Below the pieces are notes generated by a model. That model searched no databases and was not told where the DNA came from. It worked only from the letters and a program-made list of their open reading frames with translations. This document shows positions 2,492 to 19,527 of a stretch of DNA of 22,811 nucleotides, piece by piece; position 1 is the first letter of the stretch; the number at the start of each line of letters is the position of its first letter. Both the position numbers and the translations under genes were made by a program. The DNA is from a virus: positions 1 through 22,811 of IMG/VR virus record IMGVR_UViG_3300042445_001671; one strand, 5' to 3'.

Positions 2492-2890
2492 TTAACTAAT
2501 CTCAGTGCGCCCGTCGCCAATATCTCGGGTGTGTACATAACCATTTGCTGAGTTGCGCATGGCTTGATCTTGTTCCCATGTTTCCATCACCACGTGTCTG
2601 CACACATTCTGGAACCAACGGTCCACAATGTCCGAGTCTGCGTCTGCGGGTTTCATCATGTACCCGGCCTTGACCAGTCGGGCAATGAATATTTCATTCC
2701 AGTCCAGTTCAAATGCACCTTGATGCAAGTTGTTGGGATCAATGTCCATGGTCACAATGGCCACATAAGGTTCACCTTTTTCAGTGGCAAGTTCTTTGGC
2801 AGTTTTCTCCGGTGCCTTGGTCACACGAATAACTTTTTCCTTTTGCTCTTTTGCAGGAGGTTTTGTTTTAAATCGATCAAAGAATCCCAT
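2492..2890 (-). CDS. Conserved hypothetical protein of T4-like aquatic phages
   Basis: A 132-residue soluble protein starting MGFFDRFKTKPPAKEQ. The preferred start at 2890 shares one base with the QueE stop (TAATG). Two more ATGs exist upstream at codons 1 and 5 of a longer frame, but they lie deeper inside queE and have no ribosome binding site. The N-terminal 45 residues are basic and lysine-rich, probably disordered. The rest is compact with recognisable conserved-looking stretches (EPYVAIVTMDIDP, GAFELDWNEIFIARL, DRWFQNVCRHV). I recall proteins of this pattern in marine myoviruses but cannot assign a function. Its stop overlaps the ribosome binding site of the nucleotidyltransferase gene. 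Confidence 0.8.
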   Translation of the reverse strand: MGFFDRFKTKPPAKEQKEKVIRVTKAPEKTAKELATEKGEPYVAIVTMDIDPNNLHQGAFELDWNEIFIARLVKAGYMMKPADADSDIVDRWFQNVCRHVVMETWEQDQAMRNSANGYVHTRDIGDGRTEIS

Positions 2891-3735
2891 TATTTGCCCC
2901 ATCCGTTGCCCCAAAGGTCAACGTGTAATCGTGGACTGTACCAGTAGCCACGCTTGAGTGCTTCGTCAGCAACATTGATTCTGTTGCCATCATACACTGA
3001 CACCACACCGCCCACAGGCATCACAAACACAGGTCCACCAAATTCACGCAGTCTATATTCATCCACAGCACGATCCAGTTCATCAAAGTCCTCAACTTTT
3101 TCCACCACAAACTTGAGATAGGTCACGCCATATGTTTCGTAGTCCCAGACCACATCAGGCTTGATGGCGTCTTCCCACGACTCACCACTCACACTCAGTT
3201 TAGGGCTCACACTGAACGTAATTTCACCAAACCAATTGCGCAAGTAATCCTTAAACTCTCGAGTTAAGTCTTGAGTGCCATTGGTTTCAAATGTGATGTG
3301 TCGTAGGCCACGTTCGTGCAATACATCTAACAATTCTGGGTAAGCACGTTGCCAACCCAACAATGGCTCGCCACCTGTGATTACCAAATGCACAGGATTG
3401 CCATTGGGTTGTAGCCAGTTGCCATTAGGCAATAGTGCTGTCATCCGGTCCACAAGTTCTTCCACAGTGTATGTGGGACTCAAGTGCTTGAAGTCCGGAT
3501 GCCATGACGCATAACTGTCACAACCTGTGTTCACTAGCGGCAGTTCTTCAAATGTTTTGTACAACTCCACTGTCTTGGCCACTTCGTCTGCTTCCTTACT
3601 CTTCTCTCCAGGCTTGCAGCCAAATCCTGAACAGGTAAAGTTGCAACCAAACATGCGTAAAAATACACTGGGTACACCAACATAGCGTCCTTCGCCTTGT
3701 GCTGAATAAAATAATTCTGATACTTTTAATTTCAT
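2890..3735 (-). CDS. queE: QueE-like 7-carboxy-7-deazaguanine synthase (radical SAM)
   Basis: QueE converts 6-carboxytetrahydropterin to 7-carboxy-7-deazaguanine (CDG), the third step of the 7-deazaguanine pathway, using a [4Fe-4S] cluster and S-adenosylmethionine. The 281-residue protein opens with the QueE hallmark LFYSAQGEGRYVGVPSVFLR (residues 9-28). It has Cys31 and Cys35 (GCNFTC), and a later Cys72 in GCDSYASW that matches the CDTxYAW segment where QueE carries its third cluster cysteine. ITGGEPLL (119-126) is the radical SAM GGEP motif. The roughly 36-residue insertion between the second and third cysteines resembles the non-canonical cluster loop known in some QueE enzymes; Cys40 within it is an alternative ligand. 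The start overlaps the upstream SGNH gene by 4 bases. Together with FolE, QueD and the TGT-like protein it points to modified guanine. Confidence 0.88.
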   Translation of the reverse strand: MKLKVSELFYSAQGEGRYVGVPSVFLRMFGCNFTCSGFGCKPGEKSKEADEVAKTVELYKTFEELPLVNTGCDSYASWHPDFKHLSPTYTVEELVDRMTALLPNGNWLQPNGNPVHLVITGGEPLLGWQRAYPELLDVLHERGLRHITFETNGTQDLTREFKDYLRNWFGEITFSVSPKLSVSGESWEDAIKPDVVWDYETYGVTYLKFVVEKVEDFDELDRAVDEYRLREFGGPVFVMPVGGVVSVYDGNRINVADEALKRGYWYSPRLHVDLWGNGWGK

Positions 3736-4436
3736 AATCTTGTTACCTTTGTCATGCCCGACTTGCGGGGATCTTTATTTAGATTGACGCTTTCTTCATG
3801 CATTTTAACACGAGTTTCTGATTTTGTCACCCAACCTGGTAATACTGTGTCTAAATAGGCCAAATGTTCTGCAGGACTGGGATGCGGATCTGCTCCGGGC
3901 TTGGGCCAATTGTTCAAAAATACTGTTTTATCATAGCCTAGCAATACACTGTCCAACACATTGCTGTACAGTCGCATGGCATCTCTGTGCAAACTGACAT
4001 TGTCATCTGCGGTAGGTCTTGCCATGAGTTCTACCATGCTGAGAAAACGCCAGGTCAGTCCTGGCCGATTTTCCAGCAGTGTTTTTACTGCTTTGATATA
4101 GGCTAAGTCTCTTATCAAATACCCTCGCTCATCATAGTGATCCTTTAGGTACTTAGGTTCGTATATAGGGCAGTTAAAAATATTGCCTAGAGTGTGCCAT
4201 CGCCCCGAAACATAACGATCATCTCGGTTGAAATCAGTCCAACATACTATAACAGTATCTCCTGTGCCGAAATGTTGTTGTTGATCTGCTTCCATTACAC
4301 TGTTGAAGATGTAGTGATTGCCACCCCCTGCCTGCCCCCAGTTCTCAAACTGATCAAACTCAGGTGCCAGGCAGTCAGCCCAAGTACTCCACCGGTAATT
4401 GGTAAAACTGCATCCAAATGTTAAAAGTCTTGACAT
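3732..4436 (-). CDS. SGNH/GDSL-like hydrolase fold protein
   Basis: A 234-residue protein with SGNH superfamily blocks: LLTFGCSFTNYRW at residues 4-16 (nucleophile Ser in GCSFT), GQAGGGNHYIF (about 34-44) giving the Gly and Asn of blocks II/III, and DPHPSPAEHLAYLDTVLP near residues 183-200 giving the DxxH-type catalytic pair. The last 30 residues are polar and basic and have no counterpart in the core fold. No secretion signal is visible. The ATG shares one base with the stop of the radical SAM gene (TGATG), and the stop overlaps queE by 4 bases, so it is translated as part of this series. The substrate is unknown; glycan de-acylation is the usual suggestion for the family. Confidence 0.7.
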   Translation of the reverse strand: MSRLLTFGCSFTNYRWSTWADCLAPEFDQFENWGQAGGGNHYIFNSVMEADQQQHFGTGDTVIVCWTDFNRDDRYVSGRWHTLGNIFNCPIYEPKYLKDHYDERGYLIRDLAYIKAVKTLLENRPGLTWRFLSMVELMARPTADDNVSLHRDAMRLYSNVLDSVLLGYDKTVFLNNWPKPGADPHPSPAEHLAYLDTVLPGWVTKSETRVKMHEESVNLNKDPRKSGMTKVTRL

Positions 4437-6442
4437 CAGGTCACTGGTTGTTTTTTCTTCACTGAGAAACTGCCTTGTGCTTTGGCAGCACCTGCACCTC
4501 GACGGGTACCTTTAGAGTCTCCGCCGCTGACTAGATCTACTGTAGCTTTGCCAAAGTTTCTGCGTCTTGCAAAGTAAAACAATTCAAGGAAACGATTTAA
4601 ACTCATGGTTTTATCTTCTGGAAAATCTAATCGATAAGTTGTGGCAATTTTTTCTAATGGACGATTGAAACTAAGGTAATCCCAAATATTGTAATCCACT
4701 GCCAAGTTCATGGGGTATTGATTTCTATCATTGTACTTGATATAATAGTTTCTTTGCAATTTCATCAAACTGGCCAAGAGGTCTGGGGGCAAGTTGTAAC
4801 GCTGTAAAAACTTTTCCAACACATCATACAATTCATCCACACGATCTTCTTGGTGCATGTTCATACTTGTTCTGTGAATGATATTCCACCCATGTATTTC
4901 TACACCAATCTTGGGATGGTTGATACGACCAGTGTTCATCCAGTTTGAAAAGTATTGTCTGGTTTCGGCTTCTTCTTTGATCAACCAGGGATTGGTCATG
5001 GCATAAGCAAACAAGTCTTCGTAGTAATCATTGTAACTGATACCCAGGTACTTGTTGATAAAACGTGCCGCAATAGTAGCAAAGCCGTTGATGTGGAATG
5101 TGGTCTGGAACCACGAGAAGATCTGCGCATCCAGCATGATGGGCGTGGGCATGTCCTTGGTGCCTGTTATGACATCAATGCTTTCTTCAATGTGTTCCAC
5201 ACTGTAACTGCCGGCAAAGTAATCAGTAACAGGCTGGCTGGTGATTTTGAACAATTTTTTCTGCAACAGGTTCATTTCAGCATTTTCCAACAACTGTGCC
5301 TGGAACACTGTGATACCAGTATGTTGATTCAACTCGTACAGGGCATAGAAGTTCTTTTTCCATGTTTCCAATGTTTCGCCAGGCAAGCCCAGGATCAATT
5401 CTGTGTATGCAGGAATGTTGCGTTGATCACATAACTCAAACACTTCGTTTAGTTTGTTCATTTCCATGTTCTTGCGACGAATGTTTTCCAACACGTCGTG
5501 GTCCAGACTTTGTACGCTGAGTGTAAGCCCTTGATTGAAGCCACGTGCATCCAGCAGTTTCTTCACAATGTCAATGACTTCTTTCTTTTGATTCTTGGCC
5601 CAGGCCACTGAGAACGTTCTCGGCGACCCAAACTTTTCCTGCATTTCAATAATCTTGTCAGCAATCATGCCATCACGTTCGGGATACATACCAAAGTTGG
5701 CATCAGTGATTGAGATCCAATCAAAGTTACGACGAGCCATCCATTCCAGCTCAGCAAACACACGTTCTAGTTCAAACTTCTTGACCTTGTTATAGGTCAA
5801 GCTGCCCCAGTCACAAAATGTGCAAGCATAGGGACAACCGCGATTGGTTTCCAGGGTGCCTTGCCACGTAACGTCAGGATGCTCTGCAATCATGTTGTCA
5901 AAGATGCCTGACAAGTATGGGCTGGGCACTTGTTCCAAACTTTCAATACGTTCAGCATCTTGTGTTTTTACTGCTTCGCCGTTTCTGTTGATCAACAACC
6001 CAGGCACATTTTCCCAGTCTTTGTTTTCATAATGTTCTAGCACACGTTTGAATGTGATTTCACCTTCATAGCAGATCACAAGATCCATGAATGGTTCTTT
6101 GCGAAACAACTCAGGATCTGTAATAGCAGGCTCGGGCCCGCCAAATACAGTCAGCACCTTGGGGTTGATTTCTTTGATGCGCCGTGCCAGGGCATAGTTG
6201 TATCTGTGATTCCACACATACGTGCTGAAAGTCACAATTTCATTCATGGCCAAGCGTTGTGCCAGTGGTTCCAAAGCATCTCGGCGCCAGATCCAATCTG
6301 TAACTTGAAATTGATCACGGATATTGGGATCAGCTAGGCTGTAACTCCATACCACACCTGCTGAATACGGCAAGTAATAGGCGTTGAATTCTTTTGGCCC
6401 TTGTTGAAAGTTGGGCTGTACAAAGGCTATTTTATATGTCAT
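4436..6442 (-). CDS. Large radical SAM protein with B12-binding-like N-terminal domain
   Basis: A 668-residue protein, the longest complete gene here. Residues 1-155 resemble the cobalamin-binding Rossmann domain of class B radical SAM enzymes (IAFVQPNF start; VFGGPEPAITDPELF at 99-113; FMDLVICYEGE at 118-128). This region lacks a clear DxHxxG histidine, so cobalamin binding is uncertain. The radical SAM core carries the CxxxCxxC site at Cys203, Cys207 and Cys210 (RGCPYACTFCDWG), followed by ISITDANFGM and LILGLPGETLETW, typical of this superclass. The C-terminal 250 residues match no domain I recognise and end in a Lys/Gly-rich tail. The gene starts 12 bases after the glycosyltransferase stop with no convincing Shine-Dalgarno sequence. 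Possible jobs are methylation or another radical modification of a sugar, base or protein. It lies between a glycosyltransferase and an SGNH/queE pair. Confidence 0.85.
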   Translation of the reverse strand: MTYKIAFVQPNFQQGPKEFNAYYLPYSAGVVWSYSLADPNIRDQFQVTDWIWRRDALEPLAQRLAMNEIVTFSTYVWNHRYNYALARRIKEINPKVLTVFGGPEPAITDPELFRKEPFMDLVICYEGEITFKRVLEHYENKDWENVPGLLINRNGEAVKTQDAERIESLEQVPSPYLSGIFDNMIAEHPDVTWQGTLETNRGCPYACTFCDWGSLTYNKVKKFELERVFAELEWMARRNFDWISITDANFGMYPERDGMIADKIIEMQEKFGSPRTFSVAWAKNQKKEVIDIVKKLLDARGFNQGLTLSVQSLDHDVLENIRRKNMEMNKLNEVFELCDQRNIPAYTELILGLPGETLETWKKNFYALYELNQHTGITVFQAQLLENAEMNLLQKKLFKITSQPVTDYFAGSYSVEHIEESIDVITGTKDMPTPIMLDAQIFSWFQTTFHINGFATIAARFINKYLGISYNDYYEDLFAYAMTNPWLIKEEAETRQYFSNWMNTGRINHPKIGVEIHGWNIIHRTSMNMHQEDRVDELYDVLEKFLQRYNLPPDLLASLMKLQRNYYIKYNDRNQYPMNLAVDYNIWDYLSFNRPLEKIATTYRLDFPEDKTMSLNRFLELFYFARRRNFGKATVDLVSGGDSKGTRRGAGAAKAQGSFSVKKKQPVT

Positions 6443-6454
6443 TGAGTATTTAAG

Positions 6455-7288
6455 TCATTTATCAAAGTGCCGGTGAGGATTATCAAATTGTACCATTTGC
6501 TTATTGACGTCATTCTGGGCCAACTTTTCCCAGGGATCTTGTTCGCCAGTCCAGATTCGTTTAAAGAATTCAAGATCAAGTCCCTGCTCATGCATGTACG
6601 TGGCCAAGGTTGCACAGTCTCGATGACGCAGTTCCATTTGTTTTACACTGTGAAAATCATTGGGATCATGAGGACGTCCCTCCAATGCAGCACGTTCGCG
6701 GAAAGTGGCATCGTTGTTGTTGCCAGTGATGTCTGCACGATCATGCAATACCCAAACAGGTATACGTTCCATGATGTTTAACATGTAGGCCTGTTGGCTA
6801 AGCCAGCCGTCTTGTACACTGTGTGGTGAGATGTATCCCAACAGTTCATACCACTTGCGAGGCAATATGGGGAATATGCTGTAGGGATGATCTCTATGTG
6901 TATGCACAGCCAACAATTTGAATTCACCTTCATGCCGCATGATCTCTGTGTCCCAACTTTGGGTTTCCATCACAGCATCGTCATTCCAAACCATCAGCCA
7001 ACGAGCATCAGTGTGTTCAGCCAGTTTGTTGTTGTATACATTGAGCCTGTGATAACCTTGGCGATCAAACTGCATGGCAGTGTAGTTGAGTTCCCGCTCG
7101 TCCATCCAAGGTTGCAGGTGCTGTTGAAAGTATTCAGTGCCAGCAGTGTCATCATTGTCAAATGCAAACATCAATTGCAATCGATCTGGATGATCAGCAG
7201 ATTCAATCAAGGTATGTATACAGCGACCCAGGCTGTCAGTGCGGCCTCGTGTGGCCAATAATATAGCAATATCATACTCAGGCGTCAT
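6455..7288 (-). CDS. GT-A fold glycosyltransferase-like protein (GT2-like)
   Basis: A 277-residue soluble protein resembling GT-A glycosyltransferases. It has an N-terminal nucleotide-binding strand and loop (YDIAILLATRGRTDSLGRC, residues 5-23), FAFDNDDT (41-48), and a DxD-like metal site in WLMVWNDDAVM (97-107). The start at 7288 is chosen because its ATG overlaps the QueD stop (ATGA) and has GAGGA nine bases upstream. A frame extension to 7309 adds eight residues but no better ribosome binding site. The remaining sequence is His- and Asp-rich with no membrane segment. A role in transferring a sugar to phage DNA, a virion protein or a surface glycan is possible. The neighbours, QueD upstream and a radical SAM enzyme downstream, leave base hypermodification open. 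Confidence 0.65.
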   Translation of the reverse strand: MTPEYDIAILLATRGRTDSLGRCIHTLIESADHPDRLQLMFAFDNDDTAGTEYFQQHLQPWMDERELNYTAMQFDRQGYHRLNVYNNKLAEHTDARWLMVWNDDAVMETQSWDTEIMRHEGEFKLLAVHTHRDHPYSIFPILPRKWYELLGYISPHSVQDGWLSQQAYMLNIMERIPVWVLHDRADITGNNNDATFRERAALEGRPHDPNDFHSVKQMELRHRDCATLATYMHEQGLDLEFFKRIWTGEQDPWEKLAQNDVNKQMVQFDNPHRHFDK

Positions 7289-7818
7289 GCAAATAAATCC
7301 TCGTTCCATTCTCTATGGCCTTCTCTATAAGCCATGTTTGATTGTGTTTCACGTACTTCTACTCGATAGCACCACAGTCGATCTGCTTCGCCTTGCCCCC
7401 ACATGTCAGGAATGTAAACACCATTGACATATTTGTACAACTGGTCAGCCAGTCCTTCACAGCCTAGCTTGGGCAATATGGTCAGCTTGGCTAGATTTCT
7501 GCGTTGCATCTCCTGGTAGAACTCCAGTTCAGGATCGTCTTCTGCTACCAGCAGGGTATGATCAAATTGACTTTCCAACACTGACTTGAGTTCTTTAAGC
7601 CCACCATAGTCGGCAGCCCAATTACGTGCATCCAAGTGGTCTGTACCAAAGTAGAATTTCATACTGAAACTATAGCCATGTATCAAATTGCAATGGCTGT
7701 CTGCTCGCCACTGACGATAGGCACATGGAAATGCATCGTGATATTCTTTTGTGCTGGTGTATTTGTATTGTCTTGCTGACATCCAACGGTGCCCTACTTG
7801 GTTTTGATCTTGTGACAT
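7285..7818 (-). CDS. queD: QueD-like 6-carboxytetrahydropterin synthase (variant zinc site)
   Basis: QueD turns dihydroneopterin triphosphate into 6-carboxytetrahydropterin, the step between FolE and QueE. This 177-residue protein aligns by eye with the T-fold QueD/PTPS family. Cys43 matches the catalytic Cys, and His47 in HCNLIHGYSF one zinc His. Asp86-His87 (FDHTLL) matches the catalytic Asp-His pair and Glu157 (VEVRET) the pterin-anchoring Glu. Two of the three usual zinc histidines are replaced: Tyr34 (FPCAYRQW) for the first and Tyr49 (HGY instead of HGH) for the third. It is longer than E. coli QueD (about 120), with insertions around residues 90-110 and 135-150. The gene has its own 83-base leader with a hairpin and a possible promoter, and a good ribosome binding site (AGGAG). 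Family membership is firm; activity without the standard zinc set is not assured. Confidence 0.8.
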   Translation of the reverse strand: MSQDQNQVGHRWMSARQYKYTSTKEYHDAFPCAYRQWRADSHCNLIHGYSFSMKFYFGTDHLDARNWAADYGGLKELKSVLESQFDHTLLVAEDDPELEFYQEMQRRNLAKLTILPKLGCEGLADQLYKYVNGVYIPDMWGQGEADRLWCYRVEVRETQSNMAYREGHREWNEDLFA

Positions 7819-8952: not shown

Positions 8953-9651
8953 TTATTCCTTTCTACCGCCAAACAACTGCAACAAGTTCAAGAACAAGTT
9001 GATAAAGTCCATGTACAATGTTAGCGCACCACGCACTTCTGCACTGTCACTGGTCTCCACACTGAGTTCTTCGCGAATCTTTTGCGTGTCGTAGGCAGTG
9101 AGCCCTAGAAAGATTATGATGGCCAATGCTGAAATCACCATCTGCATCACAGTTGATCCAATGAAGATATTAACAATGCTGGCGATAATAATAGCAATCA
9201 ATCCCACAAACATAAACCGGCCCACACTGTCAAGACTGCGTTTGGTAAAGTAGCCATAGCCACTCATTACCGCAAACAAGATGGCCGCACCCATGAACGC
9301 ACTAACAATTGAGCCCATGGTAAACACAGCAAAGATCATGCTAAAGCTCAAGCCCATCAAGGCCGCAAACCCATGCAAGCACAACTGTGCTGTGGATTTT
9401 GTGGGGTTATTGGCCAACACATAACTCACACCAAATATGGCTGCCAAGGGTGCAAAAATCACAATCCATTTCAACACGCCGGTAAAAAAGAATTGCAACA
9501 GTTCTGGTGTGGTGCCAATCCAGTAGCTGATCAGCATGCTGACCAGCACAGCCAAGCTCATGTGCCCATACACACGACCCATGGCCGAATTAATTTCTTC
9601 TGCTGAACGATAATTTATAACATCGTTGTCATTGTAGTTTGCGCCAAACAT
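8953..9651 (-). CDS. Bax inhibitor-1/YccA family membrane protein
   Basis: A 232-residue polytopic membrane protein of the BI-1/TMBIM family (YccA, YbhL, YetJ). About seven hydrophobic segments can be marked: roughly 30-46, 57-80, 87-103, 107-128, 143-163, 167-186 and 208-226. The family signature GLTAYDTQKI lies at 183-192. Asp188 and Asp215 (YMDFINLF) are positioned like the di-aspartyl pair that senses pH in the calcium-leak channel BsYetJ. YccA-type relatives also bind the FtsH protease. The phage copy could alter host membrane ion leak or protect a membrane protein from FtsH. The start follows a consensus ribosome binding site (TAAGGAG) placed directly after the previous stop. Confidence 0.9.
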   Translation of the reverse strand: MFGANYNDNDVINYRSAEEINSAMGRVYGHMSLAVLVSMLISYWIGTTPELLQFFFTGVLKWIVIFAPLAAIFGVSYVLANNPTKSTAQLCLHGFAALMGLSFSMIFAVFTMGSIVSAFMGAAILFAVMSGYGYFTKRSLDSVGRFMFVGLIAIIIASIVNIFIGSTVMQMVISALAIIIFLGLTAYDTQKIREELSVETSDSAEVRGALTLYMDFINLFLNLLQLFGGRKE

Positions 9652-9862: not shown

Positions 9863-9976
9863 TTAAGTTAATTCTACCACTCTATATTTGGATGCAGGAT
9901 ACTGTTCTTGCAACCACTCTAATAACCCAGGTTCCCAGGGCAATTGAATTTCTCCTGTGCAGTTTGTGATGATCAT
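9863..9976 (-). CDS. Very small gene downstream of folE (37 aa)
   Basis: The ATG at 9976 overlaps the folE stop as ATGA, and the frame runs for 37 residues to a TAA at 9863-9865, just inside the next gene's ribosome binding site. It thus fills exactly the space between folE and the 63-residue gene. The product starts MIITNCTGEIQLPWEPGLLE and is acidic and amphipathic with Trp and Tyr residues. It has no recognisable domain. The tight 4-base coupling and lack of leftover space are the main support; expression is not shown. Confidence 0.6.
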   Translation of the reverse strand: MIITNCTGEIQLPWEPGLLEWLQEQYPASKYRVVELT

Positions 9977-10668
9977 CTTGGTGCAAACTCCTGTTGTAAT
10001 TTGATATTGTCCATGAACTCTTTTTTGACGCTGTCGTGATCTTTGAACGCACCACGCAACACAGTGGTCTGTGTGAGACTGCTATGGGCCATGATGCCCC
10101 TATTAGTACAACACCCGTGTTCCGCCTGTATGTAAACACCAATATCCTTTGATGCTGTTGCTGCCATGATCTCATTGGCAATGTCTATACACAGTTCTTC
10201 CTGTAGCGTACCGCGACGGGCACACCACTGAGCAATTCGAGTATACTTACTCAGACCAATCAGTTTCTCTGCCGCAATAATGCCAATATAAGCAACCCCA
10301 GCAACGGGTTGGTGATGATGACTACACATACTACGAAGTTCACTGCGAACCACGAGCATGCCTTCGTAACGGTCTGCTGAATCATTTGGAAACGCTGTTG
10401 CGTCTGGTGGGGGTTCATATCTACCTGCCATTATTTCGTTGTAGTACATCTTGGCCAAGCGGCGTGCTGTGCCCTTGCTATTGGGATCTGTTTCGCGATC
10501 AATCAGCAATGCATCTAACACACCTTCGAATGCCACTGTGGCTTCGTCGATGAGTTTTTCTTTGATGGCTTCGCTCATGTAATCGCTGATATTGTCTCCG
10601 GCCCAGAAGCGCTGACCTCGAGCCTTCATTTGTTCTCTAAGTACCTGTGATAAATTCTTTTCTTGCAT
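9973..10668 (-). CDS. folE: GTP cyclohydrolase I (FolE)
   Basis: FolE opens the guanine ring of GTP to give dihydroneopterin triphosphate, the first step of both folate and 7-deazaguanine synthesis. The 231-residue protein has the full family pattern. Zinc ligands are Cys115 and His118 (MCSHHHQPV) and Cys186 (AEHGCCTNRG). IGLSKYTRIAQWCARR (137-152) contains the substrate-binding motif, and the C-terminal TTVLRGAFKD is conserved. The N-terminal 40 residues are an extension relative to the core. The gene has its own near-consensus sigma70 promoter and a ribosome binding site (TGGAG), unlike most genes here, so the pathway may be switched on at its entry step. Since queD and queE follow downstream, the likely role is base modification rather than folate supply. 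Confidence 0.93.
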   Translation of the reverse strand: MQEKNLSQVLREQMKARGQRFWAGDNISDYMSEAIKEKLIDEATVAFEGVLDALLIDRETDPNSKGTARRLAKMYYNEIMAGRYEPPPDATAFPNDSADRYEGMLVVRSELRSMCSHHHQPVAGVAYIGIIAAEKLIGLSKYTRIAQWCARRGTLQEELCIDIANEIMAATASKDIGVYIQAEHGCCTNRGIMAHSSLTQTTVLRGAFKDHDSVKKEFMDNIKLQQEFAPR

Positions 10669-10685: not shown

Positions 10686-10714
10686 ATTGTACACTATTTA
10701 GATTTTGTTGTCAA
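10686..10714 (-). promoter_or_regulatory. Sigma70-type promoter of folE
   Basis: TTGACA (10709-10714) and TACAAT (10686-10691) are separated by exactly 17 bases. The -35 is a full match and the -10 matches 5 of 6, so this is an early-type host RNA polymerase promoter. The -35 lies in the last codons of the epimerase gene and the -10 in the 29-base gap before folE. The leader would be very short, about 10-12 bases, and includes the TGGAG ribosome binding site. Confidence 0.8.
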
Positions 10715-11618
10715 TTATGTTTTGCCAAATCTCAATAGTTCGGTCCAAGCCGTCACTGAGTGTTATCTGTGGTCGCCAGCCCAGTGTGTTAGTAATTAGG
10801 TTGTGGTTGCTGTTGAGCCAATATATTTCACCATGTCGCATGGGTTTGGTATTCCAATTAATGGTACCCGACCAGTTCAATTTGCCTGCAATTTGGTCAG
10901 CGTAGTCCTGAATCTTAACAGGAGCATCTGGCCCTAGTGTGAAGATCTTGCCCTGACATCGATCAGGATTGTCAATCACTGCACACCATGCTGCCAGCAG
11001 GTCATCAATGAACAAAAAGTTACGATAAGGTTCGGCATAGCCAAGATTCACAACATCGCCACGTAGCATTTGGCTAATGATTTGTTCTGTCACAAAGAAG
11101 TCATTGTCCTTGCGGCCATAACTGTTGGTTTGCCTAACAGCAGTGAAAGGAAAGCCCTGACTGCGGTGCATGTACTCCAGGTACTTCTCCACAGCATACT
11201 TGGCCACAGCATATGGTGCATTGGGATTGGGTTGGGTGCGTTCATCAAATGCCACTGACTGCTTGGGCGAGCCATGATCTACTACTTCGTCACTAATAGG
11301 TTGCCAACCATACACTTCCATGGTGCTGGCAAACACAAAGTTTTTGAGCTTGTTACAGTTTTTAGCAGCCTCAATCAAGTTTACACTGCCAATATAGTTG
11401 ACTTGACTGAAACTGATCTGTTCGTAAAAACTTTTTTCAACCTCAGTTCTAGCTGCCAAATGTACTATGACATCTGGATTGGCCTGCTGTACTTCTTGTT
11501 TGACAGCATCAAAGTCCAGCAAGTCTGAAGTCATTGGATGCACTGTGTGTGATTGTTCTAGTATGGGCACTAGGTGTGAGCCAATAAAACCACTGGCTCC
11601 GGTGACAAAAATTTTCAT
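10698..11618 (-). CDS. SDR-family NAD-dependent epimerase/dehydratase
   Basis: A 306-residue extended short-chain dehydrogenase acting on nucleotide sugars. The Rossmann motif TGASGFIGSH is at residues 6-15. The active site has FASTMEVYG (96-104, Thr in the Ser/Thr position) and Tyr136-xxx-Lys140 (YAVAK). AVRQTNSYG and the later YRNFLFIDD are the substrate-side motifs of the dTDP-glucose dehydratase / GDP-mannose dehydratase / UDP-glucose epimerase group. The exact substrate cannot be chosen by eye. It is the last gene of the sugar block, joined to the preceding gene by a 4-base ATGA overlap, and the folE -35 lies in its 3' end. Confidence 0.88.
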   Translation of the reverse strand: MKIFVTGASGFIGSHLVPILEQSHTVHPMTSDLLDFDAVKQEVQQANPDVIVHLAARTEVEKSFYEQISFSQVNYIGSVNLIEAAKNCNKLKNFVFASTMEVYGWQPISDEVVDHGSPKQSVAFDERTQPNPNAPYAVAKYAVEKYLEYMHRSQGFPFTAVRQTNSYGRKDNDFFVTEQIISQMLRGDVVNLGYAEPYRNFLFIDDLLAAWCAVIDNPDRCQGKIFTLGPDAPVKIQDYADQIAGKLNWSGTINWNTKPMRHGEIYWLNSNHNLITNTLGWRPQITLSDGLDRTIEIWQNIIDNKI

Positions 11619-12667
11619 GAAGTTCCCTTGTTATCAACGAATTCTCTTATGTATTCAGCCATTCGTGGTCGAATACTTTTTGATAGTTCTACCAATCGTT
11701 CGTAGTTGGCTATTAATCGTGGTCTGAGTTGAGTTCGTAAACGTTGGCAGTCCTCTAACGAATACTGTTTATTAATATTGACTATTAATTCAAATACCTG
11801 TTGGTACCTCTCTGACTCATTTTTTATACCATCATATCGGTGGTTGTCTAGTATGTCATCGAATGTGTCAAATCCCAGTTGTCTAACTTGATCTACAGTG
11901 CCCTGCACCCCATACCAAATTGGCAGCTGATGTTGCATGATGACTTTCCATGTTTTTTCTGTCAGAAATACATTTTTCCAAATATGTGCATCCATGGTTT
12001 GCCCACTTGATTCTGCCACAATATTAAATGTACACGAATAGAATTTAGGGCAATCTACATCGTAAATTTTTTCATGGGTGGCAATTAACCCATCTACCAA
12101 TATTGGCAAATTGTGATTGGGGAAAAATGATCGGTATTCATTTAACCCCACAGTGGTCATGGATCCAAAACTGATCAACACATTGTCAACACCAACATTG
12201 TTGATCAAGAATTCTCCCAGTTGAGCACGACTCATGCTGGGCCGGCGCATTAGACACAAAAACTTTTTGTCGGGCACAATAGTGTCAAAATCAAAATTGG
12301 TTGGATGCATCCAGTTGTTGTTTCCTACAATTAAAAAATCTGGCACACAACGAGCATGATACGGCAATGTATCTGTATCTACCACAGCATTAAACAGCAC
12401 CATGAATCTACCAGGGTGTGTTTGTTGCATGATATCAGTTAGTGGCTTGAGGTCTTCAACATTGTGTCCTTCGGGTAAAAAACAAAGTACTATTTTATTT
12501 TGTGCAAATTCTTCTGCTGATATATCGCTGTCAACGCAGTCTTGAGCAATGCGTTGTTCGCAATATCCAGGGATGGATATATCATCTTTATTAAAATGGC
12601 AGGACCCATAGAACAAAGTGTTCTCAAGAAAACCATATCTATGGCGATGACGACTGATGCTGTTCAT
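11615..12667 (-). CDS. Phage glycosyltransferase-like protein with EKTWK/DTFDDI C-terminal domain
   Basis: A 350-residue soluble protein. The C-terminal domain contains FLTEKTWKVI (about 235-243), LPIWYGVQGTVDQVRQLG and DTFDDILDN (267-275). The order of an EK-containing motif followed by a small hydrophobic patch and Gly resembles the nucleotide-sugar site of GT10/fucosyltransferase-like GT-B enzymes. KKFLCLMRRPSMSRAQL at 134-150 is a second basic motif. It is clearly related to the 345-residue protein encoded at 13254-14291, which shares EKTWK and GxDTFDDIxD. Lying between an aminotransferase and an epimerase, it probably transfers a sugar made by the block. Assignment as a glycosyltransferase is inference. 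Confidence 0.6.
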   Translation of the reverse strand: MNSISRHRHRYGFLENTLFYGSCHFNKDDISIPGYCEQRIAQDCVDSDISAEEFAQNKIVLCFLPEGHNVEDLKPLTDIMQQTHPGRFMVLFNAVVDTDTLPYHARCVPDFLIVGNNNWMHPTNFDFDTIVPDKKFLCLMRRPSMSRAQLGEFLINNVGVDNVLISFGSMTTVGLNEYRSFFPNHNLPILVDGLIATHEKIYDVDCPKFYSCTFNIVAESSGQTMDAHIWKNVFLTEKTWKVIMQHQLPIWYGVQGTVDQVRQLGFDTFDDILDNHRYDGIKNESERYQQVFELIVNINKQYSLEDCQRLRTQLRPRLIANYERLVELSKSIRPRMAEYIREFVDNKGTS

Positions 12668-13257
12668 TCAACAATCTGTATTTGTCTGCAATCTGGATAA
12701 ACAACCTCACGTGGTGGTTGACTTTGATATTGACTCAACAGTTCCATGCCACGTTGAGCTTCTTCTATGGTAGGGCGATAATGATAACCTACTCGAAATT
12801 CTTGTTGTTCAACCCATGGACTAATGGTCAAGTCCCGCCCATCATATCGCATGCGCAACAAGGCTTGATATGCTGACTCATCATCCAGCAGTATGGCACC
12901 ACCACGTCCAATTGCCAGGGGTTTGTCATGTCCAAAACTCACGCACTGCATCTGCCCGGCTCGATACATATTGGCTTCTAGACGTCTTGCACTATCCCAA
13001 ATGCGTGTTTCAACAAACGGATACTCTCCCACCCAACGTTGCCATTCATGATCTAAGTATTGATATTTGATGGCCAGCTTGCGCATGGTCATTGGAATGC
13101 TCAAATAGGTAAATGGAGTAAACGTACAGTTTTCTATTTGATCATATCGTAAACACAGTTCAATAGCGTGTGTGCAACAATCAGTCATGATCACATGTGG
13201 TGCACCTGTGAACTTGGCCAGTGCAGTTTCAAATTTTAGTATAGCGTCAAAACTCAT
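12664..13257 (-). CDS. Short DegT/DnrJ/EryC1-type PLP aminotransferase-like protein
   Basis: This 197-residue protein matches sugar aminotransferases of the DegT/DnrJ/EryC1/StrS group (usually 350-400 residues) over compressed segments. These are KFETALAKFTGAPHVIMTD (residues 8-26), FTPFTYLSIP (46-55), WDSARRLEA (87-95, Asp88), the PLP site SFGHDKPLAIGRGGAILLDD (107-126, Lys112), and GYHYRPTIEEAQRGM near 157-171. The catalytic lysine and cofactor Asp are kept, but most of the small C-terminal domain is missing. The frame is intact and both ends overlap neighbours by 4 bases, so it is not obviously decaying. It may act as an aminotransferase with minimal size, or have become a binding or regulatory protein. 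Confidence 0.75.
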   Translation of the reverse strand: MSFDAILKFETALAKFTGAPHVIMTDCCTHAIELCLRYDQIENCTFTPFTYLSIPMTMRKLAIKYQYLDHEWQRWVGEYPFVETRIWDSARRLEANMYRAGQMQCVSFGHDKPLAIGRGGAILLDDESAYQALLRMRYDGRDLTISPWVEQQEFRVGYHYRPTIEEAQRGMELLSQYQSQPPREVVYPDCRQIQIVE

Positions 13258-14291
13258 TGGGTTAATATTTTTTTAATTAAATCTTGTTGGTAGTTTATAC
13301 CAAATTCACCATTGAAAAATTTTTCAGCATTGGCAATTCTACGTGGTTCAGTATCTTTATATATGGATTCAAGATCTTGTGATAATAGATTGTTGATTAC
13401 TTGGTGAATTTTTTGTATCCGCAATTGCCAATCAGGTTCGTTGTCGTAGTAATTGTGATCAACAATGTCGTCAAACGTATCAACACCGTACTCTTTGAGA
13501 TGAGCCATTACATTTTTGTAACCCATGATCAAAAACAATTGTGCGCTGGCTATGGGCTTCCAGGTTTTTTCTGAAATTATCATTGATTCAGACATGTCAG
13601 TCTCAGTTATAAGATTGATATAACTGTCTGTATATGCAGGATCTCTAATATCAAAATTGATGTTTATTTTTAAGTTGCCAGTTTTTGGCAATTGATGTTT
13701 TATTGCATTCCATCGCTGTATTAATTCTACAGGCATGCTGTCTTTTGCAAGTTTTTCTTGGTGGTCTGCCATCTCAATATCTTGACTGTGCATACTAATC
13801 CTAAAGTTTTGTACTTCAGAATGCGATTGCAGTAACAAATAATTGTACACACGATGCCATCTTGGTACAGAATTTAGACAAGATAATTTATATTTTTTAA
13901 TAATTGGTGCATATATTTTTTTTGAAACATTTACTCTAAGACGATGGTAGTGGTGCGGATAATGCAATATATTAGGACGTATCTGATGGTTAAGTATATT
14001 ACAATGTAGTATAACAAAATTTATACCAATCTGTTCAAGCACATCATACAAGGGAAAATGAGTTAGTCTTTCATAACTGAAATCCGCAATTACCAATGAA
14101 TATTTTTTCAACTCTGATAGTTGTTTTAAAATTCCCTCAGATGAATACCCTGCATCATCGGAAGGATATGGAAAAAAACTAAAATAAAAAATTGTTTTAT
14201 CACCAATATTATAAACTCGACCTTGATCAATGCTGATGTCTGAATCAGCTAATTTGGCCATGTCATACAATAATCGATCAAGTTCGGTCAT
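13254..14291 (-). CDS. A/T-rich glycosyltransferase-like protein, paralogue of the 350-aa protein
   Basis: A 345-residue soluble protein with long A/T runs in the gene and many Ile, Lys, Asn and Tyr codons, visibly richer in A/T than its neighbours. The C-terminal half carries MIISEKTWKPIASAQLFLIM (237-256) and YGVDTFDDIVDHNYYD (268-283), shared with the protein at 11615-12667, so the two are paralogous in this domain. The N-terminal halves do not resemble each other. No classical GT2 or GT4 motif is seen; the GT10-like EK motif suggests sugar transfer, which is an inference. It has 4-base overlaps with GalE upstream and the aminotransferase downstream. Confidence 0.6.
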   Translation of the reverse strand: MTELDRLLYDMAKLADSDISIDQGRVYNIGDKTIFYFSFFPYPSDDAGYSSEGILKQLSELKKYSLVIADFSYERLTHFPLYDVLEQIGINFVILHCNILNHQIRPNILHYPHHYHRLRVNVSKKIYAPIIKKYKLSCLNSVPRWHRVYNYLLLQSHSEVQNFRISMHSQDIEMADHQEKLAKDSMPVELIQRWNAIKHQLPKTGNLKININFDIRDPAYTDSYINLITETDMSESMIISEKTWKPIASAQLFLIMGYKNVMAHLKEYGVDTFDDIVDHNYYDNEPDWQLRIQKIHQVINNLLSQDLESIYKDTEPRRIANAEKFFNGEFGINYQQDLIKKILTQ

Positions 14292-15241
14292 CTAGAATAC
14301 CATGCCCAGGCATGCTGTATCATGTCATCCAAAGTGTAGTGGCGCCACTCTTTGCCAACCATGCCAAATTTGGCAGCACTTGCTGTGAGCACAGCAGGAT
14401 CACCTGGTCTAGCATCACCCAGCACAATTTTTAATTTCTTTCCAGTTACACGTTCGGCTGCGGCAATGATTTCTCTGTTGCTGACGCCTGTGTTATTGCC
14501 TAGATTGTACACGCCAGGGGGAATATCAGCATCCAAGGCCATGACATGTGCTCGAGCAATGTCTTCCACATGCACATAGTCACGCACACATGTGCCATCT
14601 GGTGTGGCAAAGTCCACACCATTCAGCGTAAATTCATTATCATACTTAATGGCTTGTAACACTCTGGCAATGATGTGTGTTGCATCTTCGGGTTGACCGT
14701 GTCTGCCTTGACTGTCAGCACCGCAGGCATTGAAATAACGGAATGCCACATAGTCCAAGTTATAGGCTTTGTGATATGCTGCCATGATCCGTTCTACTAT
14801 GAGCTTGCTGTCACCGTAAGGCGATATGGGCTCGCAAGGATCTACTTCGTGACAAGGAGTCATAATAGGCTCTCCATACACTGCGGCACTGCTACTAAAA
14901 ATAACTCTGGTCTTGGGCATGCTTCTGCGCACTTGATCCAGCAATGTAAGTGTATTCACCACATTGTTTTCAAAATAACGTCCAGGATGTTTGATGCTGG
15001 GCCCAACCAGGCTGTTGGCAGCACAGTGAATAATAGCATCGGGGGCATGTATCAGTATCTTGACCAGGGAATCTTCGTGAGCAAAGTCCTTTTCAATGTA
15101 GTCGTGAAACACTGATTGCAAACGCTTGGGACATTTGGCTTTGTCGATGCCCACTACACGATGTCCAACATCGGCCAACATTAACGCAGTTTGACCGCCA
15201 ATATATCCAGCAGCACCTGTGACTACTACAGTTTTTTTCAT
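14288..15241 (-). CDS. galE: UDP-glucose 4-epimerase (GalE)
   Basis: A 317-residue NAD-dependent epimerase that interconverts UDP-glucose and UDP-galactose (or the N-acetyl forms). The sequence shows VVVTGAAGYIGGQTA at residues 5-19 (NAD site), IFSSSAAVYGEP (114-125, catalytic Ser), Tyr142-xxx-Lys146 (SPYGDSK), FRYFNACGAD and CVRDYVHVEDIA. All are diagnostic of GalE. The length is slightly below bacterial GalE (about 335-340). It overlaps the GT-B gene upstream and the glycosyltransferase-like gene downstream by 4 bases each, so it probably supplies the sugar donor for them. Confidence 0.92.
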   Translation of the reverse strand: MKKTVVVTGAAGYIGGQTALMLADVGHRVVGIDKAKCPKRLQSVFHDYIEKDFAHEDSLVKILIHAPDAIIHCAANSLVGPSIKHPGRYFENNVVNTLTLLDQVRRSMPKTRVIFSSSAAVYGEPIMTPCHEVDPCEPISPYGDSKLIVERIMAAYHKAYNLDYVAFRYFNACGADSQGRHGQPEDATHIIARVLQAIKYDNEFTLNGVDFATPDGTCVRDYVHVEDIARAHVMALDADIPPGVYNLGNNTGVSNREIIAAAERVTGKKLKIVLGDARPGDPAVLTASAAKFGMVGKEWRHYTLDDMIQHAWAWYSR

Positions 15242-16440
15242 GTTTTAACCTTCGTCACATGGTATTTGGCTTCAGCCACATGATCACGGTATCTCGCACC
15301 CGCTCGATTCCAATGCTCACCCGCACCAGTGAGAATATCAACAATACGATCAACAGTGCCATTGTTCCAGTCAGATATGAGACCCATGTTGTGATGTGGT
15401 TCTCGCAGTAAATTTTGCATCTTGTGATATGCATCATCAATGCTCCACGGAATGTACAGTCTGTTGGGGTCGTTGGCAAAGGTTTCGGGGAATGACCGGT
15501 ATGCTGGATATAGCACATTGCAGCCAACAGTGTCAGCCTCACTGACTGTATTGCTGACCCAATCTTGGAGAGCACAGTTGAACAAAACTCTAGTGTTGTT
15601 GAGATGCGCATAGTATTCGTTCTTGGTGATGTTGTCGTAGATTTTTAACTTGCCGGCTGCTTCCATGGCTCTGGCACGTGTCACATATTCTGGGTTGTTG
15701 CTACGTAATTCACCGCCTGAGTATATGCAGAACTCAACTCCCATTGGTCCTTGATCATGTACTATGTCAATCAAGTCCATGAAGAAACCTGGTTGCTTTT
15801 CTTGATCAAAACGTGCAGCAAACCCCACGCGGCGTGGACGATCTGCAAATGGTCGAACGTTTGCACTGCCACCAATGCGTTCCAGCACTTCTTCTTTGCC
15901 AAATGCCAAGCCTGAGATGTTGTAGATTGGAGCAGTCCAACCAGCAATGCGCATGTGTGCAACCATTTCTTCGTTGGTGGCCAGCACGCCTGTGACAAAC
16001 TGATTGACCATGCGTTCATATGTGCTCATCCAGCCAGCCATGCCCCAAACATGCACAAAGTCATCAGGGTCAATGGCCTGTGCTAGGCAGCGTACATAAA
16101 TGCGAGGACGTTGTTTTGCGGGAATTTGGTCCATGATGTAAGGTAACGACTCAATGCCAGGTTGAAACATGTCTTCAAAATAGATAACATCTTCATTTGT
16201 TACTTCACCTTGTTGCATTAGACGAACCAAGTTCATCATTTGGCTCATGCCAAAATAACTGCGTCCGTGTGCGTCCAGCACTTGCCCCACAACAATCTTC
16301 TGACTGTTATCTAGGGTCAAGCCTGGCACGTAGACTACATCTAGTCCTCGACGTTCAAACACACGCCGATTCCACTCTGTCAGTTGTAGTGTGTAACGGG
16401 CCTCGTAACTTTCAAGGCCCATGTAGTACAGTTTTCTCAT
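15238..16440 (-). CDS. GT-B fold glycosyltransferase (GT4-like)
   Basis: A 400-residue protein with a two-domain GT-B architecture. The C-terminal nucleotide-sugar domain starts at RRVGFAARFDQEKQPGFF (203-220), the GT4-type strand-loop with Arg and Lys that grip the donor phosphates. SEADTVGCNVLYPAYRSFPE follows in place of the usual E-x7-E region. The N-terminal domain (1-190) holds a conserved-looking IYFEDMFQPGIESLPYI. No membrane anchor is seen. In T4, glucosyltransferases modify DNA; here the partner GalE and the block of sugar genes make either DNA or a surface glycan possible as acceptor. It overlaps the small gene upstream and galE downstream by 4 bases. Confidence 0.82.
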   Translation of the reverse strand: MRKLYYMGLESYEARYTLQLTEWNRRVFERRGLDVVYVPGLTLDNSQKIVVGQVLDAHGRSYFGMSQMMNLVRLMQQGEVTNEDVIYFEDMFQPGIESLPYIMDQIPAKQRPRIYVRCLAQAIDPDDFVHVWGMAGWMSTYERMVNQFVTGVLATNEEMVAHMRIAGWTAPIYNISGLAFGKEEVLERIGGSANVRPFADRPRRVGFAARFDQEKQPGFFMDLIDIVHDQGPMGVEFCIYSGGELRSNNPEYVTRARAMEAAGKLKIYDNITKNEYYAHLNNTRVLFNCALQDWVSNTVSEADTVGCNVLYPAYRSFPETFANDPNRLYIPWSIDDAYHKMQNLLREPHHNMGLISDWNNGTVDRIVDILTGAGEHWNRAGARYRDHVAEAKYHVTKVKT

Positions 16441-17411: not shown

Positions 17412-17905
17412 AATTTACTATCACCTTTGTAATCATCCCATGAAGTAAATGTCTCACGGCTCATCAGGCTGTGCAGACTGTGGCACCAGACGCCGGGATT
17501 GGTAGCGTCAAAGTCCTTGTCATCTATTTTTAACATTGTATTATAATTCCACAGTTTTGTATACGGTACACTTACTCGAATCTGCGGAATGAAGTTGCGG
17601 TAGTCGCACAGTGATCCATCATTGAACTCCTCCACTGCCCCAATTGGAATGTCCAGTGTGCAAAGGTAACCACGTGTCAAAAAGTATGTGATCATGCTTT
17701 CCCACTCACGCCATTCTTCTGGAGTCTTGGGATCAAAACTGTGATTGGCACCAAAGAAAATATGCTCTTCGCCATGCATGCGTGTAATGATTGAATCAAT
17801 GGGTTGAATACCTACTACAAACAGCGTCTTCTTACCAAAGGCAGGAGTGCGTTCTACTTCCGTGCCTTTAAAGAATGCAACATCTTCGTGTCCTTCACGT
17901 TTCAT
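17408..17905 (-). CDS. Hypothetical protein directly after the TGT-like gene (165 aa)
   Basis: A 165-residue soluble protein joined to the transglycosylase gene by a 4-base ATGA overlap. Visible segments include KKTLFVVGIQPIDSI (25-39), HIFFGANHSFDP (48-59), TRGYLCTLDIPIGAVEEF, and NPGVWCHSLHSLMSRETF near the C-terminus. The alternation of hydrophobic strands and helices suggests an alpha/beta fold. Scattered Cys and His residues do not form an obvious metal site. I do not recognise the family. Tight coupling makes it a candidate partner or accessory factor of the base-exchange enzyme. Confidence 0.8.
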   Translation of the reverse strand: MKREGHEDVAFFKGTEVERTPAFGKKTLFVVGIQPIDSIITRMHGEEHIFFGANHSFDPKTPEEWREWESMITYFLTRGYLCTLDIPIGAVEEFNDGSLCDYRNFIPQIRVSVPYTKLWNYNTMLKIDDKDFDATNPGVWCHSLHSLMSRETFTSWDDYKGDSKL

Positions 17906-19527
17906 GTCATGGTCTCCAAGTTGTCAAGTTTGCTAGAATCAAAATCTTCTTGTTCAGTTTGTTCAGGTTCATCATAGGTAAAATGAACACCAAACATAGT
18001 TCGTGCGTTCTTGGCTTTTTTACCTTTGAACCCACGTGTGCCCACAATTTCCATCCAGTAACTATCATAGTATTCAATAATGGCTTCGCTTTCTTCACGT
18101 GTGGGCGCAGCAAATATAGCCTCTACAATGTCTTCAAACCGGGCATAGTCGCCGGTGCTACGGCGCATCATAGCAGGGTGCTCTCCAGCGTCAAAGCGTC
18201 GGTTGGCTTCCTGTACAGCAGTCAAATGCATCCAGACATTGTGACCCATAAGCAATGCATAACTAAAACTGTCCCAGCTTGTCTTGCCCCATTTGCCATT
18301 TTTGTTAACATCTGGCAACACATCATACATGTCAGCGTCTTGGAAATTTTCTTCCGTAAGTACAACTCCGGGCTTGGGTACACCTGGGTTATAAATGCAG
18401 ATGTCTTTCATTTTCAACATGTCACTAAGTGGTGAATCTTCCCAACGTGGATAGATGCCATCTGCTACCACACCATCTGACCATTTGCGTGTGTCCGTGG
18501 CATACTTTTTGTCATCTGCTGACGGTGCCATGCGATACGACCACTTTGAATCATGTTCAAACACATTCTCAAAGTACACCTGGCCGTTAGCTGTAGCGAG
18601 GAATGGACTGGCACAATCAAAGGAGATAGAGAATGCCGGGTTAACGTGTTTCCTAACAGCCCTTTGAATCACGGTGAGTAGCACAGCCCATTCCAACTTG
18701 CTTGTACCCAAAAAGTGCATCCAATCATGTATGCCTTCTTGTAACAGATTATCATATCGTAATGCAACCAGTCTACGTAAAATTAAATGTACATCACACA
18801 TGTTTTGTCCACCCATGGCCCAACCATTGAAGTGGGTGTCAGGATACTGTGTAGTATCGCAATAATGTTTCATGGTATCGTACCATTCATCAGCATCAGT
18901 ATGGCTGGCACCTTGTAACACATTTAATATCTTGGTTCCGCCATTCTTAACACCTTTACGATGTTTCATAAAATATTCGTTATTGAACTTTGTGGCTTCT
19001 ACCAGTTCCTGCGGTGACTTAAAGTTGCCAATTTTACTATTAGCCACAGGATCGTGTATAACCCAGGTTGGAATATCTAGTGTCATAGCATAGTCGCTTA
19101 CACCGTCTAACCATTTTAATACTGCTTCACGTTTGCCCTGTGCTTTGGGGCATCCTGAATTAGCATGCCAATCACCTTCCCACAGGCCTTTGGCAATTTG
19201 GAATCCACCAGAGTCACCTAACATCAATGTACCTGGCTCTCTATTGCGAACCATGTCTTCTGACCAATCTTGTTTGGTTAAATCCAAGTTGGCATGACCA
19301 CCTGAATACAATGACCACTTGTATGGGAACAATGCTTTCTGACTGTTGAGCCAGTTCATTTGTTCCATGTCTGTGAGTCCCTGCGGAAACCTCGCAGGAT
19401 CCACGTAGTGCTCGTTGCGTTGCTTGCCCACAAACGTGGCATAGAAACCTGATATGGCTGGAAGGAAAATGGCATATTGGCTTCGACCATCTGGACCAGT
19501 TTGTTTGGCTGTTAGATTATCCTGCAA
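17902..19527 (-). CDS. dpdA: TGT-fold guanine transglycosylase, DpdA-like
   Basis: A 541-residue protein of the tRNA-guanine transglycosylase superfamily. Phage members (DpdA) exchange guanine in DNA for a 7-deazaguanine. Its residues line up with Zymomonas TGT: Asp105 in LMLGDSGGFQIA (TGT D102), Asp151 in MTLDIPTW (D156), Gln205-Gly206 in NVLQGA (Q203), Gly239-Gly240 in WAMGGQ (G230), HFLGTS at 271-276, and Asp304 in ISFDCASPF (nucleophile D280) followed by ATANGQVYF. The CxCxxC...H zinc site of tRNA enzymes is not seen, and there is a long C-terminal region (330-541). No ATG is available: the frame starts at TTG 19527, overlapping the DUF2061 gene by 11 bases, with only a weak GTGGGG upstream. 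DNA rather than tRNA as substrate is inferred from phage context and the missing zinc motif. Confidence 0.82.
   Translation of the reverse strand: MQDNLTAKQTGPDGRSQYAIFLPAISGFYATFVGKQRNEHYVDPARFPQGLTDMEQMNWLNSQKALFPYKWSLYSGGHANLDLTKQDWSEDMVRNREPGTLMLGDSGGFQIAKGLWEGDWHANSGCPKAQGKREAVLKWLDGVSDYAMTLDIPTWVIHDPVANSKIGNFKSPQELVEATKFNNEYFMKHRKGVKNGGTKILNVLQGASHTDADEWYDTMKHYCDTTQYPDTHFNGWAMGGQNMCDVHLILRRLVALRYDNLLQEGIHDWMHFLGTSKLEWAVLLTVIQRAVRKHVNPAFSISFDCASPFLATANGQVYFENVFEHDSKWSYRMAPSADDKKYATDTRKWSDGVVADGIYPRWEDSPLSDMLKMKDICIYNPGVPKPGVVLTEENFQDADMYDVLPDVNKNGKWGKTSWDSFSYALLMGHNVWMHLTAVQEANRRFDAGEHPAMMRRSTGDYARFEDIVEAIFAAPTREESEAIIEYYDSYWMEIVGTRGFKGKKAKNARTMFGVHFTYDEPEQTEQEDFDSSKLDNLETMT

Follow-up and report, generated by a model that had tools for sequence, protein, structure and literature searches.

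A virus-encoded QueD-like protein lacking two of the three zinc-binding histidines represents a clade found in phages, archaea and bacteria

The DNA analyzed here, a 22.8-kb virus record referred to below as the window, encodes on its minus strand a 177-aa QueD-like protein (P0001, 7285..7818) without two of the three histidines that bind zinc in QueD. QueD contributes to the production of modified bases for DNA and RNA. The alteration characterizes a whole lineage and is no local mutation: we found it in about 345 homologues encoded by phages, archaea and bacteria, drawn from cellular genomes, phage isolates and viral contigs (a few entries in this count are one protein counted twice). By family, the window protein falls within the PTPS superfamily, and by context it is QueD-like, but it belongs to a distinct subfamily and is not a canonical QueD. 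Judging from its genomic settings and conserved residues, the variant probably performs the QueD reaction, the synthesis of 6-carboxy-tetrahydropterin (CPH4), with an altered metal site; at the level of function alone, it is very probably the same as canonical QueD. A broader proposal is, in our estimate, evenly poised between right and wrong: that the variants constitute a widespread metal-independent class of CPH4 synthases, common to phages, marine group II archaea and SAR86 bacteria, which replaces zinc-dependent QueD in archaeal operons and forms CPH4 from dihydroneopterin triphosphate in an aldolase-like manner through Tyr, His and Gln residues.

Assignment to the PTPS superfamily (PF01242/COG0720) is based on both sequence and predicted structure. 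The window protein matched the Pfam PTPS model with 52 bits (cut-off 22.4) and phrog_2389, ‘QueD-like’, with 123 bits, and AGGAG, a clear ribosome-binding site, precedes the ATG of its gene by a short distance. An AlphaFold2 model (pLDDT 90.4, from a 106-sequence alignment) displayed the T-fold of the superfamily. In Foldseek searches with this model, the entries 4ntk, 4ntm and 4ntn were recovered with E values of about 1e-7 and a TM score of 0.8 by target length, and E. coli QueD was among the best PDB neighbors; as modeled, the fold of the window protein is that of E. coli QueD. The score against the NCBIfam QueD model TIGR03367 was 32.8 bits, below its cut-off of 89.25, and variants reached 33–41 bits against this cut-off of 89. 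Following published motif definitions (PMC5041015), QueD (PTPS-I) carries CxxxHGH, for which the window protein has CxxxHGY, and folate-type PTPS-III enzymes carry the Glu motif ExxHGH, which is likewise absent, with Cys43 kept and no Glu at the Cys position. Only one of the three histidines of the QueD zinc site is retained. The catalytic Cys, Asp-His and Glu of QueD are all present, as are neighbors from the preQ0 pathway, with folE and queE in the window and full sets in relatives.

PTPS enzymes hold zinc by three histidines (PMC7546909). A preliminary description of this DNA had placed tyrosines at two of these positions by eye, and the assignment was borne out by three alignment routes: MAFFT with E. 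coli QueD (sequence verified against the K-12 record), a joint alignment of 136 non-redundant variants and 22 canonical PTPS proteins, and profile-HMM comparison with the E. coli and P. aeruginosa proteins of known structure. Tyr34 (codon 7717..7719; this and all following codons on the minus strand) corresponds to E. coli His16, the first zinc ligand, and is replaced by Phe in most relatives. Tyr49 (7672..7674) corresponds to the third ligand, E. coli His33, resulting in HGY for HGH in 135 of 136 variants. Alignment to the QueD/PTPS families had been named beforehand as the test of this claim; no shift restores the histidines, and the agreement of all three routes rules out such an explanation. 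The sole zinc histidine kept is His47 (7678..7680; E. coli His31). The catalytic Cys43 (7690..7692), the catalytic pair Asp86-His87 (7558..7563) and the pterin-anchoring Glu157 (7348..7350) are present exactly as claimed and, like His47, occur in 136 of 136 variants. Three further residues are near-invariant in the variants only: Gln36 (7711..7713; in 135 of 136 variants, with Leu or Val in most canonical proteins), which lies two residues past position 34 and is, therefore, expected on the same strand face; His42 (7693..7695), a clade-signature histidine directly before the catalytic Cys that is replaced by Asn in most SAR86 proteins; and Asn161 (7336..7338), invariant in variants and variable in canonical proteins. 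All 81 closest viral sequences share Tyr34, His42, Cys43, His47, Tyr49, Asp86, His87 and Glu157, which rules out a sequencing error or a single mutant.

The altered site is not the oddity of one protein that it first seemed but is carried by a large clade. Across the approximately 345 homologues, the residues at positions 34/42/43/47/49 read FHCHY in 244 cases and YHCHY in 92, with HHCHY, FNCHY, FRCHY and FHCHH each rare. When the 136 non-redundant variants were compared to the 22 canonical proteins, position 49 was Tyr in 135 variants versus His in all 22 canonical sequences, and position 34 was Phe or Tyr in 133 variants (Phe in 93%) versus His in 21 of 22. The earlier suggestion that metal binding has changed is supported by the Phe or Tyr residues at two of three ligand positions, present in nearly the whole clade. 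A conservation scan of the 136 variants identified Arg35, Cys43, His47, Asp70, Asp86, His87, Glu121, Glu157 and Asn161 as universal polar residues, while Gln36 and Tyr49 were present in all variants but one. The scan detected no universal histidine besides His47 and His87, which excludes a new triad built from other conserved histidines. In a phylogenetic tree computed without the three trait columns, the variants formed one clade (SH-aLRT 93, or 98 without long-branch canonical rows). Its three His34-keeping members with the pattern HHY (PA5oct_b, L178 and L331) might be either ancestral intermediates or reversals, as a tree in which they adjoin the canonical proteins was not rejected (p-AU 0.50).

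From PTPS biochemistry, a canonical enzyme deprived of two of its three metal ligands should be inactive; on this argument, the variant could be a QueD relic without catalytic activity, or it could serve as a structural or regulatory subunit. We consider this highly improbable, because none of the 136 proteins, down to about 31–34% identity to the window protein, departs from Cys43, His47, Asp86, His87 and Glu157, and because the variant is the sole PTPS where the whole pathway is kept.

Cellular genomes provide the clearest view of such settings. In the marine group II archaea (Poseidoniales), 55 of 60 sampled genomes contain a PTPS gene, exactly one each. The 30 best-scoring ones inspected were all canonical (GHR..KC..HGH), while others were of the variant type. 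Both types occupy the same slot of a folE-queE-queC-queD operon: orthologous queE and queC adjoin all 30 canonical and all 10 variant loci examined, and folE is found as well where the stretch reaches that far. A shared operon slot without a second copy is the pattern expected of isofunctional displacement. Variant-bearing genomes also contain QueC, and every one searched except one had an archaeal TGT. At one Poseidoniales locus (L273:7887-8993), QueC is fused with a methionine sulfoxide reductase B domain.

These loci bear on another idea of the preliminary description, that the reaction differs from that of standard QueD; the replacement of canonical QueD in the Poseidoniales operon, with one PTPS per genome, speaks against it. 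An enzyme with a different catalytic outcome might be PTPS-III-like, form a BH4-type product or act as another pterin aldolase, with CPH4 coming from elsewhere, for example, a host QueD. The departure from the QueD signature CxxxHGH, the 33 bits obtained with the NCBI QueD model (cut-off 89) and the presence of both QueD types in phage PA5oct would agree with such a role, and phage hosts often possess a QueD of their own. However, Poseidoniales and SAR86 lack any other PTPS for CPH4 synthesis even though queE, queC and TGT are present, the variant fills the slot of the canonical gene, and its Cys spacing is that of PTPS-I (CxxxHG), with no PTPS-III Glu motif. A different outcome is, therefore, unlikely in our assessment.

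One complete SAR86 chromosome carries the variant as its single PTPS gene, accompanied by queC, TGT and a queE that scores above its curated cut-off. The variant lies in the gene order folE-maf-queD-cysS, an arrangement common to 11 SAR86 genomes. Nine of the 11 SAR86 variants, from genomes without another PTPS gene, have Asn as residue 42. Within the SAR86 group as a whole the pathway is patchy, and 47 of 61 genomes have no PTPS gene. In Acinetobacter rudis (L258:8989-10355 and L347), a variant queD stands beside folE and is joined by a QueD2-type paralogue; a search of this organism for a standard QueD returned none.

For the chemistry itself, we propose that the variant would be a working CPH4 synthase and provide the QueD step of the phage’s own pathway. 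The zinc triad would have been dismantled by His34 to Phe/Tyr and His49 to Tyr replacements, leaving the Cys, Asp-His and Glu machinery in place. His47, Tyr49, Gln36 and usually His42 would hold and polarize the side-chain hydroxyls normally bound by zinc, Cys43 and Asp86-His87 would serve in proton transfer, and cleavage of the C1'-C2' bond would take place as in dihydroneopterin aldolase. This combination of an absent metal, aldolase-like cleavage and Tyr, His and Gln acting for zinc has, in our view, about an even chance of being correct.

A serious rival competes with the metal-free detail and not with QueD function: the same reaction would be catalyzed at a rebuilt metal site, formed by His47 and His42 together with Tyr49, Cys43 or a residue from a neighboring subunit and possibly occupied by a metal other than zinc. 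That another histidine such as His42 substitutes for the lost ones had already been raised in the preliminary description, and in part the data agree, as His42 is a clade signature (133 of 136 variants, none of 22 canonical proteins) that appears where the other histidines are lost. Moreover, the HHY members PA5oct_b, L178 and L331 keep His34, His42 and His47 and could hold a three-His site, and, with a p-AU of 0.50 for their placement next to canonical proteins, acquisition of His42 could precede loss of His34. QueD is also listed as a zinc-dependent enzyme (PMC9508795), which counts against the metal-free reading. On the other hand, Asn42 in nine of 11 SAR86 proteins, each the sole PTPS, means that His42 cannot be obligatory for the clade and weakens it as an obligatory substitute ligand; Arg replaces it in one viral protein (L236). 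Position 34 is Phe in the great majority of variants, and the universal histidines are limited to His47 and His87. We regard a rebuilt site as a tentative possibility. From the sequence comparisons, metal-free catalysis appears likelier, given the loss of His42 in most SAR86 proteins, the inability of Phe at position 34 to bind metal and the precedent of dihydroneopterin aldolase, which works without metal through a Tyr.

Compared to known enzymes, the variant shares with QueD/PTPS-I (E. coli QueD, PDB 4ntk) the fold, the catalytic Cys, Asp-His and Glu, the Cys-to-HG spacing, the pathway neighbors and, in Poseidoniales, the operon slot. It differs in CxxxHGY, in Phe or Tyr at the first zinc His and in the conserved Gln36, His42 and Asn161. 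Among PDB sequences, the variant profile matched QueD2 of Acinetobacter baumannii best (PDB 7v0f, E 1.7e-14). Genes for QueD2 are predicted to be Zur-controlled, that is, used at low zinc (PMC9508795). Unlike the variant, however, QueD2 keeps HGH in the part of 7v0f that was aligned, and all three zinc histidines are retained in L347, its homologue from Acinetobacter rudis; moreover, queD2 is an additional copy, while the variant is frequently the sole one. The mechanistic parallel is dihydroneopterin aldolase (FolB), which belongs to the same tunnelling-fold superfamily and performs metal-free aldol cleavage (C1'-C2') of a closely related pterin by means of a conserved Tyr (PMC4176595). FolB belongs to a different family with different residues and showed insignificant Foldseek similarity to the window model (E 0.2 and worse), making the parallel an analogy. 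Among phage proteins, the QueD of phage 9g resembles the variant in being part of a 7-deazaguanine DNA pathway but has the canonical zinc histidines; it complements an E. coli queD mutant (PMC6884629).

In the literature searched, we found neither an assay of a variant protein nor a description of an HGY-type QueD, although earlier notice, for example, as ‘PTPS-V’, is possible. If the reaction has been kept after the loss of two of three zinc ligands, the clade would illustrate how a metalloenzyme can alter its catalytic strategy while retaining its fold. The exchange within the Poseidoniales operon offers matched natural pairs of variant and canonical enzymes. As the NCBI QueD model misses the variants, archaea and bacteria relying on them would be scored as lacking QueD. 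Zinc limitation, which would be assumed to halt the QueD step, may not do so in these organisms.

Among phages, the variant is the only PTPS in nine isolates (ACP17, R5C, ART, Me-ZS1, Iggy, phi38:2, phiST, Moby and RHEph04), and in ART, Me-ZS1, Iggy, phi38:2 and RHEph04 it is clustered with folE, queE and queC. The DNA of an Iggy-genus phage with such a cluster resists eight of 16 restriction enzymes (PMC11945000), an indirect indication, as the host may supply QueD. PA5oct encodes two QueD proteins, one canonical and one variant, with a few genes between them (L097:1700-2218 and 3995-4465), and beside the canonical enzyme the variant may serve another role there.

In the window, the queD-like gene is flanked by genes for the preceding and following pathway steps, both on the minus strand: folE, encoding GTP cyclohydrolase I (9973..10668), and a queE-like radical SAM gene (2890..3735; phrog_2076, 181 bits). 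From GTP, the pathway would proceed via FolE, QueD and QueE in the direction of a 7-deazaguanine base, which is most likely destined for phage DNA. The Cys/His set expected for the zinc site of FolE itself is present, which rules out phage-wide zinc sparing. In relatives with full flanks, FolE was located within 9 kb of the variant gene in 24 of 27 cases and QueE in 20 of 27. Searches for QueC in the nearest phage relatives (11 records, 54–353 kb) gave two weak matches and no clear one, so that the phage pathway might stop at a carboxy-7-deazaguanine, or completion of the base might fall to the host. The QueE-like protein has an odd cysteine spacing (C31, C35, C40 and then C72), with an apparent insertion between the cluster cysteines.

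A candidate for a divergent DpdA/TGT-type transglycosylase is a 541-aa ORF with a DSGGFQ motif (17902..19527, minus strand). It had no PHROG match, one insignificant Pfam model and no hit in PDB profile searches; with a low-confidence AlphaFold2 model, the best Foldseek PDB match was the archaeosine TGT 1iq8 (E 7e-3). We tentatively consider a DpdA, maybe of a new type, plausible. Relatives of this ORF in the jumbo phages PA5oct and Phosso are annotated only as ‘hypothetical protein’. Further minus-strand genes of the window include one for a 668-aa B12-binding radical SAM protein without a PHROG match, two genes downstream of queD (4436-6442), and one for a phage-encoded Bax inhibitor-1 family membrane protein (8953-9651, 182 bits). 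The region 10698-16440 encodes nucleotide-sugar epimerases, a DegT-type aminotransferase and a weakly matching glycosyltransferase-like ORF.
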